DNA of 33,956 nt from Thermoanaerobaculum aquaticum (GTDB taxonomy: Bacteria > Acidobacteriota > UBA4820): positions 1 to 33,956 of the forward strand of contig DYJZ01000010.1 of the NCBI GenBank assembly GCA_020722885.1, read 5' to 3'. Below, in pieces: positions 5,307 through 33,956 of this stretch. A program made the position numbers and the translations under genes. The notes beneath the pieces were generated by a model, which was not told the origin of the DNA, made no database searches, and worked only from the letters and a program-made list of their open reading frames with translations. Positions within the stretch are counted from its first letter, which is position 1. Every line of letters starts with the position of its first letter.

Positions 5307-5435
5307 TAATACCAATTTGATATCTGTCGTTTAAAAATTCGTAGGTGAGGATACCTATCCCCGCCCAGGCCGGAATATGTATCCCAGCCTGCGGGGGAAG
5401 TTGATTTGGCTACTGTTGATGTCAAATTGGTGTTA
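5307..5435. mobile_element. MITE-like 129-bp inverted-repeat element
   Basis: Terminal arms TAATACCAATTTGATATC (5307-5324) and GATGTCAAATTGGTGTTA (5418-5435) complementary at 16/18; GC-rich internal palindrome; interrupts the C-D repeat order seen intact at 9515-9790. Confidence 0.55.
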
Positions 5436-5440
5436 ATAAC

Positions 5441-5710
5441 AATTGACTGTCATCACGAGGAGTGCTTCGAAGCGTTTACAAACAAAGTGATCTTCCATTG
5501 TGAAGAGAGGAGGATTGCTTCGTTTGACATTGCTCCAAAAGATAGCTAATATACGATGACAGTGTTGTTTGTTAAAGAGGGAGATTGCTTCGTAAGAGAA
5601 GGCTTCGAAGTAACACTCGCAATGACAGCTTTAGAGAGCACTCGCGACGACAACGTTTTTCTATGAGGAAGACTGCTTCAGTTGCTTAACCCACGAAGGC
5701 TTTCTCGCAG
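5441..5710. repeat. Cluster of degenerate 'GTCATTGCGAG...GAAGCAATC'-type palindromic repeats (family D, copy 1)
   Basis: Multiple variants: 'gactgtcatcacgaggagtgcttcgaag', 'aggaggattgcttcg', 'gagattgcttcg', 'cactcgcaatgaca'. Confidence 0.7.
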
Positions 5711-5779
5711 TGACTGCCTTTTTTGTGGAAGACAGCCCCAGTATCCTTTCCACTAACACTTCCTAAACTTCCATTTTCG

Positions 5780-5833
5780 AGGACATTTCTAATTAGTTTA
5801 AGAAAGGAGATTGTCATATAGTTATGACAGGAC
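5780..5833 (+). repeat. Repeat family B, truncated copy (B4)
   Basis: 'aggacatttctaattagtttaagaaaggagattgtcatatagttatgacagg' matches 28-80. Confidence 0.75.
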
Positions 5834-9514: not shown

Positions 9515-9592
9515 ATCACATCTGTCCAAAATAAATTTTGACAGAACTATCTAAGAAGTCAAAAGCAAAAGTGTCAAGACTATTTAGAAATA
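9515..9592 (+). repeat. Repeat family C copy 1; 9515-9562 is the left arm of a 48-bp inverted repeat
   Basis: 9515-9562 is the reverse complement of 25006-25053 with one mismatch. Confidence 0.92.
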
Positions 9593-9596
9593 CTCC

Positions 9597-9790
9597 GTTG
9601 CGAGTGCTCACTAACCGTGTCATTGCGAGCCCCTCTTCGTAGCATCATCCCCCGAAGCAATCATCAACTTTTCAACAAAGGAAGATCACTTCGTTTGCAA
9701 CTGCTTCGAAGTGAACCTCGTGATGACAGTCAAGGATTAGCAACAAAGGTCGATCACTTCGTGTGTCCGTGCCTCGAAGTAAATTTCGTG
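9597..9790. repeat. Degenerate palindromic repeat cluster (family D, copy 2)
   Basis: 'gtcattgcgagcccctcttcg', 'ccccgaagcaatcat', 'actgcttcgaagtgaacctcgtgatgacag', 'cctcgaagtaaatttcgtgagga'. Confidence 0.7.
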
Positions 9791-9792
9791 AG

Positions 9793-10033
9793 GACATTAT
9801 CATATAGCTTTGACAGGGGACTTATGGAAATCGCTCAACAGGTTTTTTCAAATACCGCCCATTGAACCCGAAACCTATCTGCCGAGCCTTTTTGAGAACC
9901 AATTGGACAGCATTATAACATATACAGGCATAAAAACAGTGAACCTCGTTTTCAAGCCTCCCTAAAACGCGTCCAGAATCCACAATTTTTGAGGCTAAAC
10001 CTTCCGCTTTCAAATTATCCTCGAAAGCAGTTA
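9793..10033 (+). repeat. Dispersed intergenic repeat family B, copy 2
   Basis: Near-identical over long stretches with 28-296. Confidence 0.88.
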
Positions 10034-24683: not shown

Positions 24684-24771
24684 AACTCTTTAAATATCCT
24701 GTATTAGCACTAATGACAAAATTCCACCAATTACTTTTCTATCATTCTGCTGTTTAAAATTAAAATGTAGA

Positions 24772-24866
24772 CACTGCTGTCGAGGATAATTGAAAGCAGA
24801 AGCTTTATCCTCAAAAATTGAGGATTTTGGAGGGGTATTAAAGGGGTTTGAAAACGAGGCACACGG
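24772..24866 (-). repeat. Repeat family B, truncated inverted copy (B3)
   Basis: Reverse complement contains 'gcctcgttttcaaacccc', 'ctcaatttttgagg', 'cttctgctttcaattatcctcgacagcagtg', matching the distal halves of B1 and B2. Confidence 0.8.
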
Positions 24867-25005
24867 GATCGTCATTTAAATTTTGGTTTTTCCTCAAAGA
24901 GTGCACTTATTCAGCAATGGTTGAGCCTCATTTAAGTATTTTATAGTTCTCTTTTCAGGAAAAAATTATTTTATCCGAAAATGGCTCAACCTTTTTCTTT
25001 TCCCC

Positions 25006-25033
25006 TTGACTTCTTAGATGGTTCTGTCAAAAT
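25006..25033 (+). promoter_or_regulatory. Candidate queG promoter embedded in repeat C2 (TTGACT-N16-CAAAAT)
   Basis: TTGACT 25006-25011, CAAAAT 25028-25033; same register as the promoter-like sequence in C3. Confidence 0.4.
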
Positions 25034-25053
25034 TTATTTTGGACAGATGTGAT
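25006..25053 (-). repeat. Repeat family C copy 2; right arm of the 48-bp inverted repeat flanking the dcw cluster
   Basis: Reverse complement of 9515-9562, 47/48 identical. Confidence 0.92.
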
Positions 25054-26028: not shown

Positions 26029-26939
26029 ATCCTCTTTATCGCTTCAGAAAGAATTGGCGCAACAGAAAGGATTTTAATTTTGCTGCACTGTTTTGCTTTT
26101 TCTTCTGCATCAATTGTGTTAGAAACAATCAACTGTTCAAGAGGAGCTTCATTAAGATTGCTCAAAGCATTTTTTGAGAGAACGGCGTGGGTCGCTGCAC
26201 AATAAATTTTGTTTGCCCCATTTTTTTTAAGAGCCTTTACACTTTCACACAGAGTTCCTGCAGTATCAACCATATCGTCAACAATCACGCAATTTTTTCC
26301 TCTTACATTACCAATAATGTTCATTACTTCAGCCACATTCGCAGCCTCTCTTCTTTTGTCAATGATTGCAAGTTCTGCATTAAGTCTTTTTGCGTATGCA
26401 CGCGCTCTTTCAACGCCTCCTGCATCTGGAGATACGATGGTTAAATTTTTGAGTTCAAGCGATTTAATATACTTGATGAGAATGGGAGCTGCAAAAAGAT
26501 GATCTACAGGTATATTGAAAAATCCCTGTATCTGTGCTGCGTGCACATCCATACACAATATTCTGTCAGCACCAGCTGCCTGAATCAGGTCGGCAACAAG
26601 ACGGGATGTAATTGGAACTCTCGGCTTATCTTTTCTATCCTGCCTTGCATAGCCATAATAGGGAATGACAGCTGTTATTCTTCTCGCTGAAGCCCTTTTA
26701 AAAGCATCTATCAAAATGAGAAGTTCCATAAGATTCTGGTTTACTGGAGTTGATGTGGGCTGGATTATAAAAGTATCCATTCCCCTTACATTTTCAAGTA
26801 TCTGGCAATAGGTCTCACCATCCGCAAAATTTGTTATTTTAATTTGTCCAAGAGGAATTTTTAGATTTTTCGCAATTTCATTAGCCAGATTTGGATTCCC
26901 TCTTCCAGAAAATACTAAAAGATTGTCTTTTTTTGCCAT
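25992..26939 (-). CDS. prs: Ribose-phosphate pyrophosphokinase
   Basis: VFSGRGNPNLANEIAKNL, FADGETYCQILENVRG, YYGYARQDRKD, VDDMVDTAGTL; true start MAKKDN at 26939 (ORF-track extension reads through the tRNA). Confidence 0.95.
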   Translation of the reverse strand: MAKKDNLLVFSGRGNPNLANEIAKNLKIPLGQIKITNFADGETYCQILENVRGMDTFIIQPTSTPVNQNLMELLILIDAFKRASARRITAVIPYYGYARQDRKDKPRVPITSRLVADLIQAAGADRILCMDVHAAQIQGFFNIPVDHLFAAPILIKYIKSLELKNLTIVSPDAGGVERARAYAKRLNAELAIIDKRREAANVAEVMNIIGNVRGKNCVIVDDMVDTAGTLCESVKALKKNGANKIYCAATHAVLSKNALSNLNEAPLEQLIVSNTIDAEEKAKQCSKIKILSVAPILSEAIKRIHEESSVSSLFV

Positions 26940-26956
26940 TTTTTCCCCTTTTTTGT

Positions 26957-27031
<75 letters not shown>

Positions 27032-27051
27032 GAAGTCAAATATAAAAGATT

Positions 27052-27080
27052 ATTTTAACCCTTTTTTAACAGTCGTTCAA
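27052..27080 (-). promoter_or_regulatory. Predicted promoter of tRNA-Gln/prs (TTGAAC-N17-TAAAAT)
   Basis: Minus-strand TTGAAC 27080-27075, TAAAAT 27057-27052, about 20 nt before the tRNA 5' end. Confidence 0.55.
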
Positions 27081-27083
27081 CTT

Positions 27084-27310
27084 ATTGTAGAAGTCCACAA
27101 CATTTGAGACTTTTTGGGGAGGAAAGGCAGCAAGACAAATTCATTTTTAACCTCCATAAAAATGGGTGAAGGTTTCAAGTTCTTTCGGAATGTTTCTACG
27201 CCTTTTGTTCTTCGGTGCGTGCGAGCCTAAAATCAAAGCCGAAGGCAATCCTCCTTACTCCTTTCGAGCTTTTTTCCTCAGAAAAGTCTTATGTGTTTCT
27301 GAACTTTTGC
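27084..27310 (+). repeat. Intergenic repeat family A, copy 1
   Basis: 'attgtagaagtccacaacatttgagactttttgggg.aggaaaggcagcaagacaaattcatttttaacctccataaaaatgggtgaag.tttcaagttctttcggaatgt' shared with 31509 onwards; distal 'ctcagaaaagt...gaacttttgca' also shared. Confidence 0.93.
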
Positions 27311-27327
27311 ATTTATAATAATATGTT

Positions 27328-28179
27328 TTAAGAAATTTTTTTTGCTAAAACGAAAAGGTTATCTATATTCATCTTTTTAAAGGTAAGGAAATAAAGAACC
27401 TGCGATGTTCTCCACCACAAGTTTTTGGCAAGAACTTTAATATAATCACTTTTTCCTGCAACAGATTGTATCGGGGGAAGATGGACAAATTCTATTGTCT
27501 CAAAGCCGCTCTCTTTTAGAAGACGCGTTATTGTTGATTTTTTGTATAGGTTAAGATGATCTCTTGCCTCAAGATAGTGTTTCCCTTCTTTTTCTCCAAA
27601 AAAAAGTTTTTTTATTTTGCTTTTTAGCAGCTGGACTTCTCCGTTGGGCGTATGAAGAAAAAGAAACCCCCCATCTTTTAAAAGATTTATACTTTTTTGT
27701 AATATAGAATGCGGTTTTGAAAGATGTTCAACAACATCCCACATGGTAATTATATCAAAACTATTATCTTCAAAATTGGTCTTTTCGAGTTTGCCACAGA
27801 AAAAATTTTTAAGTTTAAGTTTTTCTTTTCCGAAATTGTATCCCCCTTTTGAAATTTCTACTCCAAAAGATTCCCATCCTTTAATTTCACCTGCGAACTT
27901 TACAAAAAATCCAAGCCCAGCACCCACATCCAGGATTCTTCCCTTTCTGCCAATCATGTATTTTTTTGCAAAGGCATCATACATTTTATTGTGCGAAATA
28001 TTCCAGTATTCTATTGCTTCCACTTCATTTTCAATACTTTCAAAATAGCCGTCATAATCAGCGTCTCTCTCAAAAGAAGAAAAAAGGTGGCCACAATTCC
28101 TGCACCTTAAGTAATCAATTCCAAACTCTCTAAAAACAACTTTTTTTTCAGAGGTTTTGCAAAAAAGGCATTCAGCCAC
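27328..28179 (-). CDS. Class I SAM-dependent methyltransferase with N-terminal zinc ribbon
   Basis: CLFC...CRNCGHLF zinc ribbon; ILDVGAGLGFFVKFA; WDVVEHLSKPHSIL. Confidence 0.87.
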   Translation of the reverse strand: MAECLFCKTSEKKVVFREFGIDYLRCRNCGHLFSSFERDADYDGYFESIENEVEAIEYWNISHNKMYDAFAKKYMIGRKGRILDVGAGLGFFVKFAGEIKGWESFGVEISKGGYNFGKEKLKLKNFFCGKLEKTNFEDNSFDIITMWDVVEHLSKPHSILQKSINLLKDGGFLFLHTPNGEVQLLKSKIKKLFFGEKEGKHYLEARDHLNLYKKSTITRLLKESGFETIEFVHLPPIQSVAGKSDYIKVLAKNLWWRTSQVLYFLTFKKMNIDNLFVLAKKIS

Positions 28180-28194
28180 AGGTTCTCTTTTTCC

Positions 28195-29454
28195 TTAAAA
28201 GATTATTTTTTTTCTTGGCTTTGACAATCTTTTTTCAATTTCTGCGATGTCTTTTATCAAATCTCTGGATATAATTTCCACTCCATTTTTCTTTACAACA
28301 ACATCGTCTTCAATTCTGAAACCAATTCGTCTGCTCTGATTGTAAAGTCCAGGTTCAACTGTTATTACACTGTCTTCCATTAAAGGTTCATCAACATTTA
28401 TTCCATCATGGACATCGATTCCAAGATGGTGTGAAACCCCATGAAAATTGTATTGGGCAACCCCTTTGCTTTTGTAAAATTCTGCCACAACTTTATTGAT
28501 ATGGCTTATTGTAACACCTTCTTTTATTGTTTTTATCGCCAGATTTTGCGCTTCAAGAACAATTTCATAGTATTTTCGCTGCTCTTTTGTGAACTTCCCG
28601 GAAGATGGAAAAGTCCTTGTCAGATCAGAACAATATCCATCTTTTTGTACACCAAGGTCACAGACAACCGTTTCGTTTTTACCTATCAGTTTCCTGTTTT
28701 GATTATAGTGAAGAATTGTTGAATTCTTGCCAGACCCTATTATTGTAGCAAATGACTCTCTCTGAGTACCTCTTCTTGTAAAGATATATTTTACAACCGC
28801 TTCTACCTCATATTCGTAAATTCCTGGAGTGAGAATGTCCATAATTGCATTCTGAGCTTCTATGGCAATCTCCACAGCCTTTTTTATTTTAGAGATTTCA
28901 GAAGAATCTTTGATATTTCTCAGCTTTATAGCAATATCCTTTAAATTCTTTGGAACAATATGGGGCATTTTTTCTCTTATTTCCTTATAGAAAGCAGCAG
29001 CGCTCTCCGAGCCTGCCCCTTGTGGAATTGAAAAATCAAGGTAGATTTCCTTTACAATATTTAAAGGCTTTGTCAGAAAATCCATAAGTTCATAATTTGA
29101 ATGTACTGCTTCAAAACCAGTTTGCCTAATTGCTTTCTTCCTCGTTGAATCAGCATTGCCACTTTTGTCGAGGTGGCCCGATGATATTTCAATTGGTTCG
29201 TATCTTTCCCTCATCGGGTTCGGTGGAGGAAGAAAGAGGGCATCATAAAACCTTTGTCCATCAAACAAAATCACATAAGAAGCGTTTTGAATTTCTAAAC
29301 CCGTAAAATAAAAAAAGGTCGAATCGGGTACGAATCTGTCGAGAGCATGAGAACTACCGGAGAAGATTATTGAAAGAAAAGGTTTGCCATTTGAAAGATT
29401 ATTTAGGTTTTTTTTAAGTTTTTCTCTTCTTAAATTTAAATTATCTTTTGTCAT
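28195..29454 (-). CDS. pepP: Xaa-Pro aminopeptidase-like M24 peptidase
   Basis: VVCDLGVQKDGYCSDLTRTFPSSGKF, HGVSHHLGIDVHD, ITVEPGLY, GFRIEDDVVV. Confidence 0.88.
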   Translation of the reverse strand: MTKDNLNLRREKLKKNLNNLSNGKPFLSIIFSGSSHALDRFVPDSTFFYFTGLEIQNASYVILFDGQRFYDALFLPPPNPMRERYEPIEISSGHLDKSGNADSTRKKAIRQTGFEAVHSNYELMDFLTKPLNIVKEIYLDFSIPQGAGSESAAAFYKEIREKMPHIVPKNLKDIAIKLRNIKDSSEISKIKKAVEIAIEAQNAIMDILTPGIYEYEVEAVVKYIFTRRGTQRESFATIIGSGKNSTILHYNQNRKLIGKNETVVCDLGVQKDGYCSDLTRTFPSSGKFTKEQRKYYEIVLEAQNLAIKTIKEGVTISHINKVVAEFYKSKGVAQYNFHGVSHHLGIDVHDGINVDEPLMEDSVITVEPGLYNQSRRIGFRIEDDVVVKKNGVEIISRDLIKDIAEIEKRLSKPRKKIIF

Positions 29455-29849
29455 ATCTCTTTTGTCTTCTCTTTTATTGGCAGAACATTGCTGCCTTCTT
29501 TAATTCCCATTTTTAAATTTCCAGATATTGTACCTCCTTCAAGCACAGTAAGAAGAGGATTTTCCATAAATAGATCCCCTTCTATTCTGCCGCTGGGGTG
29601 TACTTCGACACAACCTTTAATTTTTATTGTTCCGGTTATTTTTCCATAACAGATAAGAGAATCACATTCAATCTCTCCCTGAACATTTCCTTTTTCTCCA
29701 ACCACAAGACGTTCAGAATCGGCAATCTTTCCTTTAAACTCTCCATCAACTCTAAAAGTCTGTTTAAAAGAAAGGTTTCCCTCCATTCTGACACCTTCTC
29801 CCAGCATTCCTCCAACAATAGAATGTTCTACTTTTTTCCCTGTGATCAT
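29451..29849 (-). CDS. Bactofilin family cytoskeletal protein
   Basis: Beta-helix-like repeats (MEGNLSFKQTFRVDGEFKGKI...GNVQGEIECDSLICYGKITGTIKIKGCVEVHPSGRIEGDL); start ATG 29849 with GGAGG upstream and ATGA overlap with parB. Confidence 0.9.
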   Translation of the reverse strand: MITGKKVEHSIVGGMLGEGVRMEGNLSFKQTFRVDGEFKGKIADSERLVVGEKGNVQGEIECDSLICYGKITGTIKIKGCVEVHPSGRIEGDLFMENPLLTVLEGGTISGNLKMGIKEGSNVLPIKEKTKEI

Positions 29850-30703
29850 TGTCTCCTCCCACCAAATCTGCAAATCCACTCCCAGATATGGTTAAGTTCT
29901 TCTTCATTTCCAAAGAAAATCTTTACAACCCCACCCTTCCCTTTCCTGTTTATAGAAACCTTTAATCCAAGTTTTTTCATCATCTCATTTTCTGCTGTGT
30001 GCGTGTTCGGATCAACGTTTCGCACCTTTGTACTTTTCTTTTCTTTTGCCACTGCCAGCTTTTCGGTTTCTCTCACAGACAGTCCATTTTTTATTACATC
30101 ATAAAGAATTCTTTCCTGGTTCTCCTTTCCTTTAACAGAAAGAATTGCTTTAGCGTGACCAAATGTTATTAAATCTTCGTAAATCGCCTTTTGGACTGAA
30201 GCAGGAAGAGAAAGAAGTCTTAGTGTGTTTGCTATTGTTGATCTCTCTTTTCCTATTTTGGTTGAAAGCTCCTCCTGCGTTAAATCAAATTGATCGGTCA
30301 GTGCTTTATAGGCTCTTGCAAGCTCTATTGGGTTGAGATCCTCCCTCTGTATGTTCTCAACAAGGGCTATTTCTAACATTTTTAAATCTTCTATATCTTT
30401 GATTAAAACAGGAACTGTAGGCAGACCGGCTTTTTGAGCCGCTCTCCATCTTCTTTCTCCGGCAATAATTTCATAAAAACCGTTTTCTGACGGCCTGACT
30501 ATAATCGGCTGAAGTATTCCATGCTCTTTTATAGAAACTACAAGTTCATTTATTTTTTCTTCTTTAATTATTGTTCTTGGTTGACTTTTTGAAACTTTTA
30601 ATTTTGCTGTTTCTACTTCAACAATCTTCTTACCACCTGTTTCTACAGGCGGAAGTAGGGCATCAAGTCCTCTGCCAAGCCCTTTCTTAAACTTCTCTTG
30701 CAA
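29846..30703 (-). CDS. parB: Chromosome partitioning protein ParB
   Basis: GLGRGLDALLPP, GERRWRAAQKAGLPTVPV, ENIQREDLNPIELARAY, HTH region. Confidence 0.95.
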   Translation of the reverse strand: MQEKFKKGLGRGLDALLPPVETGGKKIVEVETAKLKVSKSQPRTIIKEEKINELVVSIKEHGILQPIIVRPSENGFYEIIAGERRWRAAQKAGLPTVPVLIKDIEDLKMLEIALVENIQREDLNPIELARAYKALTDQFDLTQEELSTKIGKERSTIANTLRLLSLPASVQKAIYEDLITFGHAKAILSVKGKENQERILYDVIKNGLSVRETEKLAVAKEKKSTKVRNVDPNTHTAENEMMKKLGLKVSINRKGKGGVVKIFFGNEEELNHIWEWICRFGGRRQ

Positions 30704-31460
30704 GGAATTCCTCCGTTATTTTAAGATAGGATTGTGCCCCACGAGAAGCGATGTCATAAAAAATTATTGGCTTTCCAAAAGAAGGTGCCTCGGCAAGTCG
30801 AACATTTCTCGGTATGTAAGTCTTGTAAACTTTTGAACCAAAATGGTGCTTTACCTCCTCCATAACCTGCCTTGCAAGATTTGTTCTTTCGTCAACCATA
30901 GTCAAAAGGACACCCTTTATTGTCAGGCGAGGATTGATACTTTCTCTCACTCTTTCAATTGTTCTTATAAGTTCTGAAACCCCTTCCATGGCAAAATATT
31001 CAGCCTGAATCGGAATGAGAAGCGCATCTGAAGCAGCAAGAGCGTTTATCGTAAGAAGTCCCAGAGAAGGAGGACAATCGATCAAAATATAATCGTAGTC
31101 TCTTCTTAAAGGTTCCAGTATGTTTTTTAGAATTGTTTCTCTTCCTTTTTCAAGATTCGCCAGTTCCACTTCCGCCCCAGCAAGAGAAATAGAGCCACAA
31201 ATTATTGAAAGATTTGGAAGCTCGCTTTTTACAACTGTTTCTTCAGCTGATGCTCTTTCAGTAAGAAGATCATAAATTGTAGGGTTTTCACTTCTTCGTG
31301 AAAAGCCAAAACCTGATGTGCAATTTGTCTGTGGGTCAAAATCAACAATAAGAATTTTCTTTTCTGCTGCGGCAAGCGAAGCGCCTAAATTGATCACCGT
31401 TGTAGTCTTTCCAACACCACCTTTTTGGTTAGCGACGGATATAATCAAAGCCAATTTCAT
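30687..31460 (-). CDS. parA: Chromosome partitioning ATPase ParA/Soj
   Basis: KGGVGKTTTVINLG deviant Walker A, DFDPQTNCTSGFG, IDCPPSLGLLT. Confidence 0.95.
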   Translation of the reverse strand: MKLALIISVANQKGGVGKTTTVINLGASLAAAEKKILIVDFDPQTNCTSGFGFSRRSENPTIYDLLTERASAEETVVKSELPNLSIICGSISLAGAEVELANLEKGRETILKNILEPLRRDYDYILIDCPPSLGLLTINALAASDALLIPIQAEYFAMEGVSELIRTIERVRESINPRLTIKGVLLTMVDERTNLARQVMEEVKHHFGSKVYKTYIPRNVRLAEAPSFGKPIIFYDIASRGAQSYLKITEEFLAREV

Positions 31461-31508
31461 TACTCCTCAAAATTATATTTTGCCATAAATGAAATATTTT
31501 AACAAGAA

Positions 31509-31908
31509 ATTGTAGAGGTCCACAACATTTGAGACTTTTTGGGAAGGAAAGGCAGCAAGACAAATTCATTTTTAACCTCCATAAAAATGGGTGAAGATTT
31601 CAAGTTCTTTCGGAATGTCCCTGCACCTTTTGTTCTTCGGTTGGCGCGAGCCTCAAATTAAAACCGAAAGTAATCCTCCTTTAGCTTTTCTATTATAGCA
31701 TTTGATGCCACCAAAAACACTAAAAAACCGCGTGCTTGTTCCTATTCTTTCTTTCAACGAAAATTCCCCCTTTCCGGAAAAAATGCAAAGGCTGTGTAAA
31801 TAGGCGAATTTTCCACAATTTCCACAGCCTCTACTAATTATTCTTTTTAATAAGTTTTTTTCGCTCTTTTTTCACTCTCAGAAAAGTTTCATTTGTTGAA
31901 CTTTTGCA
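31509..31908 (+). repeat. Intergenic repeat family A, copy 2, with about 170 bp of extra internal sequence
   Basis: 31509-31682 matches 27084-27256; homology resumes about 31855-31908 ('tttcgctctttttt..ctcagaaaagt...gaacttttgca'). Confidence 0.9.
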
Positions 31909-31981
31909 GAATTCTGAAGAAGTTAATTTGTATCAAAAAACGATCTTTGACCTTGTTAAAGCCTTCTATTAAAGTCTTTAA

Positions 31982-33847
31982 TTAGTTGTCTGTAAACTTT
32001 AAAAGTTCATCAAAATTTAAATTCGAAAAAGAATCTTCAGACGCCTCTTCAATGTCATTACCTCTCTTATATTCCTTCTCAATTTCTTCTATTCTTGATC
32101 TGTCAATATTTTTCTCTTTAATAAATTGCTCTCGCAGCCCCTCATTGTTTTCCTTAATAACTCTTGGGAGAATTGAAGTCAAATATTCATTTTCGCTTAT
32201 AAACTGTTCAAGAGCGGATTCAAAAGCCCCTTCAGGAACTCTGTACTCCTCTCCAAAATTTTTCTTTACAAGCCCAAAAATTTCTTTTTTCAGAATGCTT
32301 ATGTGCGACGGTTTTCCCAAATCAAAATAGAATCTACTGAAAATATCTTTTATTTTCTGAAGTATAAAATTGTGAACCCTTTCTGCATTTGCAATGCTGT
32401 TAATCTGAAACGCTGCCTGGGTAATGTTCAACTCGTTTTTCTCAATTTTCTTTATTGTATTCATAAGAAGTTCAACCTTCTTTTTGCCGAACCTCAACGA
32501 ATAGACATTGTTGTAAATTGGTTCTATCAACAATTCTCCAAGAATCTTCGGATCAATTTCATCAAGCATCTTCTTGTTTCCAAGAAGAGATCTTATCTTA
32601 TCTTCACTTATCTCTGCTTCTTCAAGAAAAGCAAGATGATTTATTACATTCATTGCATTGTCAAGCCTGTCAAAATAGGTAACTATTTCTGTAAAGAGTT
32701 CAAAGGCTTCAAAATCTTCGGTTTCAGCCGCTTTTTCATCGAGTATTCTGCCGGTCTCCAGAAGAATATGTTCAAACCCATTGTCTCTGTTGACATGAGC
32801 CTTGTGTTTTATTTTAAGAAGTTTGCTGATTTCTTCTTTTCCTATTACCTCTCTTGGTCTTGCACTTGATAGAAACAGTCCTTCAAAAATAGAACGCATT
32901 TCCCTGAGAAATGGACTCTCTTTTTCTTTTTGAAGTAAATCTTTCGCTTTTGGTATCAAATTATCAAGCGTATCAAAGAGAGCCAGTGGAAGATTATGCC
33001 TCATTGCCAGGTTTCTCAATGAGTTTAAACGGGCAATTTTGTTTGAATCAAGAGGCGTATTTAAGGCAAATGCAAGTATGTCCTTGTATTCATCAACTAT
33101 GGCTCTGTTTTCCTGCGATTTGTAAAGGATATCGATTACAATTCTTCTTCTCTGGTATTCTTCAATATTTATCTCATCTGCAAATTTCATTACGAAAGCT
33201 TCATCCTCATCCGTCCACAATTTCTTTTTTGAATAGTGTCTTTGAACGAATTTGTAAAATTGGCTATTTGTTTTGTGTTTCAGTCTTACCATAAGAAGAA
33301 GAGCATCAGGATCTGAAATCTCCTTTAAAATGCTCTCTGAAAGTGCATCATCGTTTTCTTCCCCAACATAAGAAGTTCTTTTTAGAAGTTTGCCCAGAAT
33401 CTTTAAAAGAACCTCCTGTGTCCTTCTCAGCGAGTATGGCCAGTTGGCTTTGACCAGAAAAAAGATGTTCGATATTGCATTGCCCTCAAGAAATAATTCT
33501 TTGTATGTTATTTCTCCTCTTAGATTGGGGGAAAACTCAAGTCCTTTATCACCCTGCCGGGTTCCAAAAAGAAGAAGGCGATTTTGAATTTCCTTATGAG
33601 TCAGATCATTTAAAGGAAGAGGAGAGCCAAACATATACTCTGACACAATACCTCCTGTTCCGCTAAAAATAATTTTATCTTTTTCCAGCGTTATGTAATT
33701 GCCGGCAAGAAAGAAAGAGATTTCCCTTTCATCTTTTACTTTTTCTATTTCATAGAAATGTGAAGAGAGAGGCTTTTCCCCTGCAAGATTAGCAAAAAAT
33801 TCAATTTCTTTCGAATGTCTTCCGTGTAGACGAATATCTTTAATCAT
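31982..33847 (-). CDS. Uncharacterised 621-aa soluble, predominantly helical, charged protein
   Basis: Long ORF with ATG and plausible promoter TTGAAG-N18-TACAAT upstream; no catalytic motif recognised. Confidence 0.8.
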   Translation of the reverse strand: MIKDIRLHGRHSKEIEFFANLAGEKPLSSHFYEIEKVKDEREISFFLAGNYITLEKDKIIFSGTGGIVSEYMFGSPLPLNDLTHKEIQNRLLLFGTRQGDKGLEFSPNLRGEITYKELFLEGNAISNIFFLVKANWPYSLRRTQEVLLKILGKLLKRTSYVGEENDDALSESILKEISDPDALLLMVRLKHKTNSQFYKFVQRHYSKKKLWTDEDEAFVMKFADEINIEEYQRRRIVIDILYKSQENRAIVDEYKDILAFALNTPLDSNKIARLNSLRNLAMRHNLPLALFDTLDNLIPKAKDLLQKEKESPFLREMRSIFEGLFLSSARPREVIGKEEISKLLKIKHKAHVNRDNGFEHILLETGRILDEKAAETEDFEAFELFTEIVTYFDRLDNAMNVINHLAFLEEAEISEDKIRSLLGNKKMLDEIDPKILGELLIEPIYNNVYSLRFGKKKVELLMNTIKKIEKNELNITQAAFQINSIANAERVHNFILQKIKDIFSRFYFDLGKPSHISILKKEIFGLVKKNFGEEYRVPEGAFESALEQFISENEYLTSILPRVIKENNEGLREQFIKEKNIDRSRIEEIEKEYKRGNDIEEASEDSFSNLNFDELLKFTDN

Positions 33848-33862
33848 TTTCTACCATATATT

Positions 33863-33892
33863 ATTGTAACAGATAAATCAAACACTCTTCAA
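33863..33892 (-). promoter_or_regulatory. Predicted promoter of the 621-aa gene (TTGAAG-N18-TACAAT)
   Basis: Minus-strand TTGAAG 33892-33887, TACAAT 33868-33863. Confidence 0.5.
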
Positions 33893-33895
33893 TGC

Positions 33896-33956
33896 ATTGT
33901 GGAAGTCCACAACATTTGAGACTTTTTGGGAAGGAAAGGCAGCAAGACAAATTTAT
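33896..33956 (+). repeat. Intergenic repeat family A, copy 3 (cut by window end)
   Basis: 'attgtggaagtccacaacatttgagactttttgggaaggaaaggcagcaagacaaatt' nearly identical to copies 1 and 2. Confidence 0.93.

Follow-up and report, generated by a model that had tools for sequence, protein, structure and literature searches.

A MITE-like repeat in fixed register with predicted sigma70-type promoters of a bacterial genome

The choice of an insertion site through a host protein bound to DNA is established for the yeast Ty elements and has been proposed for IS1202-type insertion sequences at XerC sites. By way of TFIIIB, Ty3 inserts within a few bp of Pol III starts, on their upstream side, with a 5-bp duplication (PMC8632968). 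Insertion sequences of the ISAjo2 type, which belong to the IS1202 family, lie 5 bp from a XerC site in one orientation and carry a 5-bp target site duplication (Harmer, Pong and Hall 2023, PMC10132070). The authors suggest that the transposase contacts XerC bound at the site (PMC10132070).

Repeat A, described here, has three copies in a 33,956-nt window, the whole of contig C6 of a draft MAG (1.9 Mb, 107 contigs, 91% complete) that was examined in full. A resembles IS1202/ISAjo2 in its 5′-TG ends, imperfect inverted repeats (24–26 bp in ISAjo2), 5-bp duplication and single orientation. In both cases, too, a DNA-bound host protein has its binding site 5 bp away; the protein is XerC for the insertion sequences and would be RNA polymerase for A. 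However, the insertion sequences target dif or pdif, whereas A is found at sigma70 promoters and not at a dif/XerC site. They are full 1.5-kb elements with a transposase, and close to both termini they have a second site for it, whereas A shows no internal end repeat beyond those of shuffled sequences. Their ends are TGT/ACA; the left end of A is TGT and the right end TGC. Their TnsB-like transposase has 441–457 residues; the candidate found in the sister species G002, which belongs to a family other than A, has 410 residues and matches IS481 and rve weakly.

Ty3 and other Pol III-targeted retrotransposons are like A in their position a few bp upstream of starts, the 5-bp duplication, a promoter that still works, and a promoter-bound factor, which is putative for A. 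Ty3 differs in being a retrotransposon with an integrase that depends on the eukaryotic TFIIIB, and there is no sequence relation. A may thus be compared with Ty3 and the IS1202-type elements in its manner of insertion, and we claim membership in neither group. With Tn7 and Tn7-like elements A shares TG/CA ends, the 5-bp duplication, and an orientation and distance that are constant relative to a recognised site. The target of Tn7 is an att site where glmS ends. In contrast to what these elements have, neither an rve (TnsB) nor a TniQ gene was found in the 91% complete, 107-contig assembly. The bacterial MITEs (Correia/NEMIS, MITEAba12 and others) are, like A, short, multicopy, gene-free and variable inside, with inverted ends; we know of no fixed promoter register among them. 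To our knowledge, no bacterial transposon docks in one orientation about 5 bases upstream of promoters. Promoter-targeted bacterial transposons were not found in the literature searched, which was mainly open-access, and priority is not certain.

The element and its ends

The three window copies had been noticed in a sequence-only reading of this DNA, and all stand, on the + strand, with their left termini refined to 27086, 31511 and 33898. Copy 1 (226 bp, 27086..27311) begins with TGTAGAAGTCCACAAC... and ends with ...GAACTTTTGCA. Copy 2 (398 bp, 31511..31908) has a longer interior, and copy 3 (33898..33956) is truncated by the contig end. BLAST and pattern searches locate A at 43–49 places in the whole genome, and 45 distinct left ends could be read with their flanks. 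The left end of the family is TGTAGAAGTCC..., in fuller form TGTAGAAGTCCACAACATTTGAGACTTTTTGGGAAGG..., and the right end is ...GAACTTTTGCA, in fuller form ...CAGAAAAGTCTTATGTGTTTCTGAACTTTTGCA. The left edge is abrupt, its first bases being T in 96% and G in 93% of the copies. Read inward, both termini start with TG and pair as imperfect terminal inverted repeats. The left and right consensus ends align with a score of 42 versus 22 (sd 4) in shuffles, and 0 of 2000 shuffles equalled that score.

A right end could be identified in 19 copies. Exact 5-bp target duplications (GGCAA, GTGGT, AAAAT and GACAA) survive in only four of these, where base composition predicts about 0.04; the right ends of the others are diverged or recombined. 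Three more copies match at 4/5 positions, both complete window copies among them. Copy 1 is flanked by CTTAT on the left (27081..27085) and TTTAT on the right (27312–27316), and copy 2, whose site is empty in G001 and G002, by GAAAT (31506..31510) and GAATT (31909–31913). For copy 3, the 5 bp between the element and the -35 box (33893..33897) are the left duplication, and the right one lies off the contig.

These boundaries change the junction given by the sequence-only reading as ACAAT on the minus strand. The repeat edge is real and reads CTTCTACA on that strand, but the final T is a host base; read outward, the host base beside the edge is adenine in 24 of the 45 copies and T in a minority. 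As this one base had been counted into the repeat edge, the distance of 3–4 bp reported between A and the -35 box is corrected to 5 bp, the length of the target duplication.

A is multicopy and shorter than about 1 kb, with defined boundaries, terminal inverted repeats, a 5-bp target duplication, and an interior that carries neither a gene nor a transposase gene. It is therefore a MITE-like, non-autonomous transposable element. Its total length is mostly 0.2–0.7 kb. Palindromic repeats GTCATTGCGAGTGCTCCTTCG...GAAGCAATCTTCC are nested in the interiors of many copies (e.g. L097, L103 and L104), so that the copies are mosaics. A search of 26900–33956 against Rfam returned tRNA as the single match and no RNA family for A.

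A second, unrelated repeat of this genome, B, has the ends TCACTGCTGTCCAG.../TCACATCTGTCCAAAAT... and occurs in the window at 35–294, 5431–5831, 9516–10033 and 24771–25053. It is also found inside some A copies or in place of their right end. At L101 (G000, contig C65) an A copy has its -10 box apparently displaced by a B end just 3′ of the -35, and this stretch also contains a further B end, which adjoins a TTGACA upstream of tRNA-Asp.

Register with promoters, and empty sites

The orientation is identical in 45/45 copies. The left end faces a sigma70-type promoter, and the promoter reads away from A. The -35 starts exactly 5 bp from the A edge in 38 copies and at 4 or 6 bp in the other seven, and all 45 are thus within 1 bp. 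Aligned outward without gaps, the 45 flanks consist of five variable bases, TTGACA, 17 bases and TAtAAT, many with a ribosome-binding site at about position 48. T stands at position 6 in 43/45 and at position 7 in 38/45, and G at position 8 in 35/45.

Promoters throughout are predicted from sequence. They were scored with a matrix of textbook E. coli sigma70 frequencies, which is independent of the present data. The best promoter in 200 nt lies at offset 4–6 for 31/45 copies. The mean score in the first 12 nt is 8.1 bits versus 2.0 (sd 2.2) in first-order shuffles. Of the 45 copies, 32 have a site of at least 6 bits at offset 5 and five have one at offset 4, with 0–2 at each other offset up to 59. 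The same matrix test found no register at the right ends of A (n=30) or at either end of repeat B in the same genome (n=15 and 10), and B is thus rejected as a promoter-docking repeat. Because A right ends and B ends show no register, survival in intergenic DNA is insufficient to explain the docking. The fixed register proposed from three copies therefore holds genome-wide, far beyond chance; a search of the whole genome for randomly placed or oriented copies returned the register in 45/45.

The genes docked by A include metG, relA/spoT, SHMT, rpsF, purD, nusA, rpsA, ackA, urocanase, and the tRNAs for Met, Thr, Gly and Gln. Many are housekeeping genes, and they share no theme.

The three window promoters named by the sequence-only reading, TTGAAC-17-TAAAAT, TTGTTA-17-CAAAAT and TTGAAG-18-TACAAT, are correct. 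The promoter of tRNA-Gln/prs has its -35 TTGAAC at 27075..27080 and its -10 TAAAAT at 27052..27057, both on the minus strand and placed by register and sister comparison; it occurs without A in G002 as TTGAAT-17-TAAAAT. On the same evidence the parA promoter has its -35 TTGTTA at 31500..31505 (-) and its -10 CAAAAT, extended as ATGGCAAAAT, at 31477..31482 (-). This -10 had been the weakest assignment, and it is right because two sister species conserve the promoter at that place without A, as TTGTTA/TTGTCA ... TGTGGCAAAATAT. For the 621-aa gene, the register gives the -35 TTGAAG at 33887..33892 (-) and the -10 TACAAT at 33863..33868 (-), with a spacer of 18. The gene itself (31985–33847, -), which adjoins copy 3, encodes a protein with no Pfam match.

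The upstream regions of orthologous genes were compared in the sister species G001, G002 and G003. A-free orthologous promoters are present for nine genes: metG, rpsF, purD, parA, tRNA-Gln/prs, rpsA, SHMT, urocanase and the L081 gene. The metG promoter is TTGCCT-17-TAAAAT in G001, and the rpsF promoter stands without A in all three sister species. For parA, the A-free promoter is TTGTTA or TTGTCA followed by TGTGGCAAAAT, which is conserved in G001 and G002. Since these orthologous promoters are present without A, A inserted beside pre-existing promoters. When A is removed in silico and one copy of the duplication is kept, the flanks and the sister sequences can be aligned across the junction; the clearest case is parA with its upstream neighbour, the 621-aa gene. 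In G001 the end of the 621-aa gene lies directly upstream of parA, with no A between them. A is absent from G001 and G003, and the single copy of G002 is docked as CTTCTACA-AAGCC-TTTGACA...TATACT.

What guides the insertion

Where the -35 is good, the position of A follows the -35 (offset 5, with a spacer of 17 or 18). Eight copies have a weak -35 with 2–3/6 matches (AAGAAA, TTTTGT, TCTTTA, TTCATT, TTGTTG, TTGTAT, TTGCTC and TTGCAT). All eight keep a -10 of 4–6/6 at the usual place, seven of them at the exact modal position; the -10 is a perfect TATAAT in four, and several have an extended TG. The urocanase gene has a poor -35 in G002 as well, and thus its -35 was probably already poor when A arrived. 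Among 428 other TTGACA-like hexamers in non-coding DNA, only 22% are followed at 16–18 bp by a -10 that matches 4/6 or better, the other 335 having 3/6 or worse, compared with 22/25 of the comparable A sites. Judged by these sequences, the target of A is the promoter in the form recognised by sigma70. This suggests that promoter-bound RNA polymerase is the guide.

We consider it probable that A is a MITE-like element inserted at sigma70-type promoters with the bound RNA polymerase holoenzyme, and not the hexamer alone, as its guide. The transposition machinery would place A at such a promoter, always with the left end toward it. The staggered cut would span the 5 bp that directly precede the -35 hexamer, from about -40 to -36, which would correspond to the upstream edge of the polymerase. 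The transposase or a partner would contact the holoenzyme on the DNA, with sigma region 4 or the alpha-CTD at that edge as candidates. The core promoter remains intact after insertion, so that A would multiply where harm is small. The ends, the duplications, the register with its orientation and the greater age of the promoters are established from the sequences, whereas the protein as guide is an inference.

The transposase or a partner could instead read promoter-like DNA itself, either a TTGACA-like motif or a bipartite -35/-10, without contacting RNA polymerase. TTGACA is indeed the strongest signal of the flanks by the counts given above, and its complement, TGTCAAG, is loosely similar to the tip of A, TGTAGAAG; some insertion sequences favour targets resembling their own ends. 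The register also follows the -35 where a good -35 is combined with a spacer of 18. However, A avoids the abundant non-coding TTGACA-like sites that lack a -10, and copies at AAGAAA, TTTTGT and TCTTTA keep the register of the -10. A variable spacer and a trade-off between the two boxes are properties of sigma70 itself. Direct reading of DNA is thus unlikely, although it is the foremost alternative to guidance by the holoenzyme.

Much less probable is random insertion, after which selection would retain the copies that spare promoters or that, at an exact spacing, serve as a regulatory module upstream of them. Insertion leaves the core promoter intact and many neighbours are housekeeping genes, as selection would have it. 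Yet neutral survival would scatter copies in the way of repeat B and of the A right ends, whereas A keeps one position. The same promoters run without A in the sister species, and it is implausible that 45 insertions beside unrelated genes were each useful independently. The sequence-only reading had offered, as one choice, a portable regulatory module linking chromosome segregation, prs and the 621-aa gene. This fails because the relatives have the same promoters without A and the docked genes are a miscellany without a common theme. Conservation of A at orthologous promoters, expected of such a module, was not seen in the sister species, given their single copy in G002. Its other choice, a target-selective element, is strongly supported by the terminal inverted repeats, the 5-bp duplications, the docking of 45/45 copies and the empty orthologous promoters. 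An effect of A on the adjoining promoters is possible. That the -35 is the element's own, as in the many insertion sequences that carry outward -35 boxes and as the TTGACA that closes the G002 family on its right might recall, is scarcely credible, since the five bases from edge to -35 and the -35 itself vary among copies and the -35, spacer and -10 are common to the A-free orthologues, so that the empty sites contradict it.

If the holoenzyme guides A, the transcription machinery itself joins the list of guides, with bp precision beside sigma70 promoters. It would show how a small genome can bear dozens of insertions beside essential genes, and such sites would be natural, expression-neutral insertion sites. 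For uncultured bacteria the copies also provide a promoter map within the genome, each marking a likely working promoter, with the transcription start predicted about 41–43 bp from the left edge of A.

The missing parent and a second docked family

The sole DDE transposase seen in the genome, for which DDE_Tnp_1 was also searched, is the IS1182-like L209; its ends are not A-like, and it is rejected as the parent of A. No parent with matching ends and a transposase was found in the draft assembly or in the sister species. Repeats break the assembly, and it may be unassembled or lost. Across 396 genomes of the phylum, the A end motif gave only scattered matches beyond this genome and the one G002 copy. 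G126 has seven matches and G324 two; three were inspected, and they are not A-like. A scan of a contig collection with the motif gave ten matches, about the chance expectation, one being the G002 copy. An exact 18-base match to the A end lies 5 bp from a promoter-like site, TTGAAT-17-TATAAT, in a Dojkabacteria MAG (L196, 7119–7175), and it is taken as chance because it is single-copy there. The plasmid, phage and viral collections contained no match to A.

G002 carries an intact 410-aa DDE transposase (L213/L215; D172, D233, E269), the element with its gene being found at L215 263–1495, and internally deleted, short derivatives at L249, L252 and L256. The 773 kb of G002 sampled in stretches yielded seven distinct left ends of this family, with two weaker matches set aside. 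At five of the seven the best promoter of 200 nt lies 8–10 bases from the motif CTCAA, and its -10 lies 30–32 bases from CTCAA; were the terminus two bases farther out, as the right end suggests, this would be about the -10 distance in A. A score of at least 6 bits is reached at 5/7 left ends versus 4% in shuffles. The two ends that are not docked are L244 and L249/L256.

The tie between A and the G002 family is their like docking and not their sequence. Since its interior is not significantly similar to that of A, the G002 family is an independent example and not the proven parent of A. We lean, by a small degree, towards transposition marked by the polymerase holoenzyme as a bacterial counterpart of Ty3, in at least two families of one Aminicenantes genus, one of which retains its transposase gene. 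A had also been considered as a cut-down form of the G002 transposon, both having the hairpin GTGGAAAT(T)GACGA, and a BLAST comparison of the two interiors returned no significant match. Every copy of the G002 family finishes on the right in TTGACA or a near match, and the left end of the family seems to carry the end motif twice.
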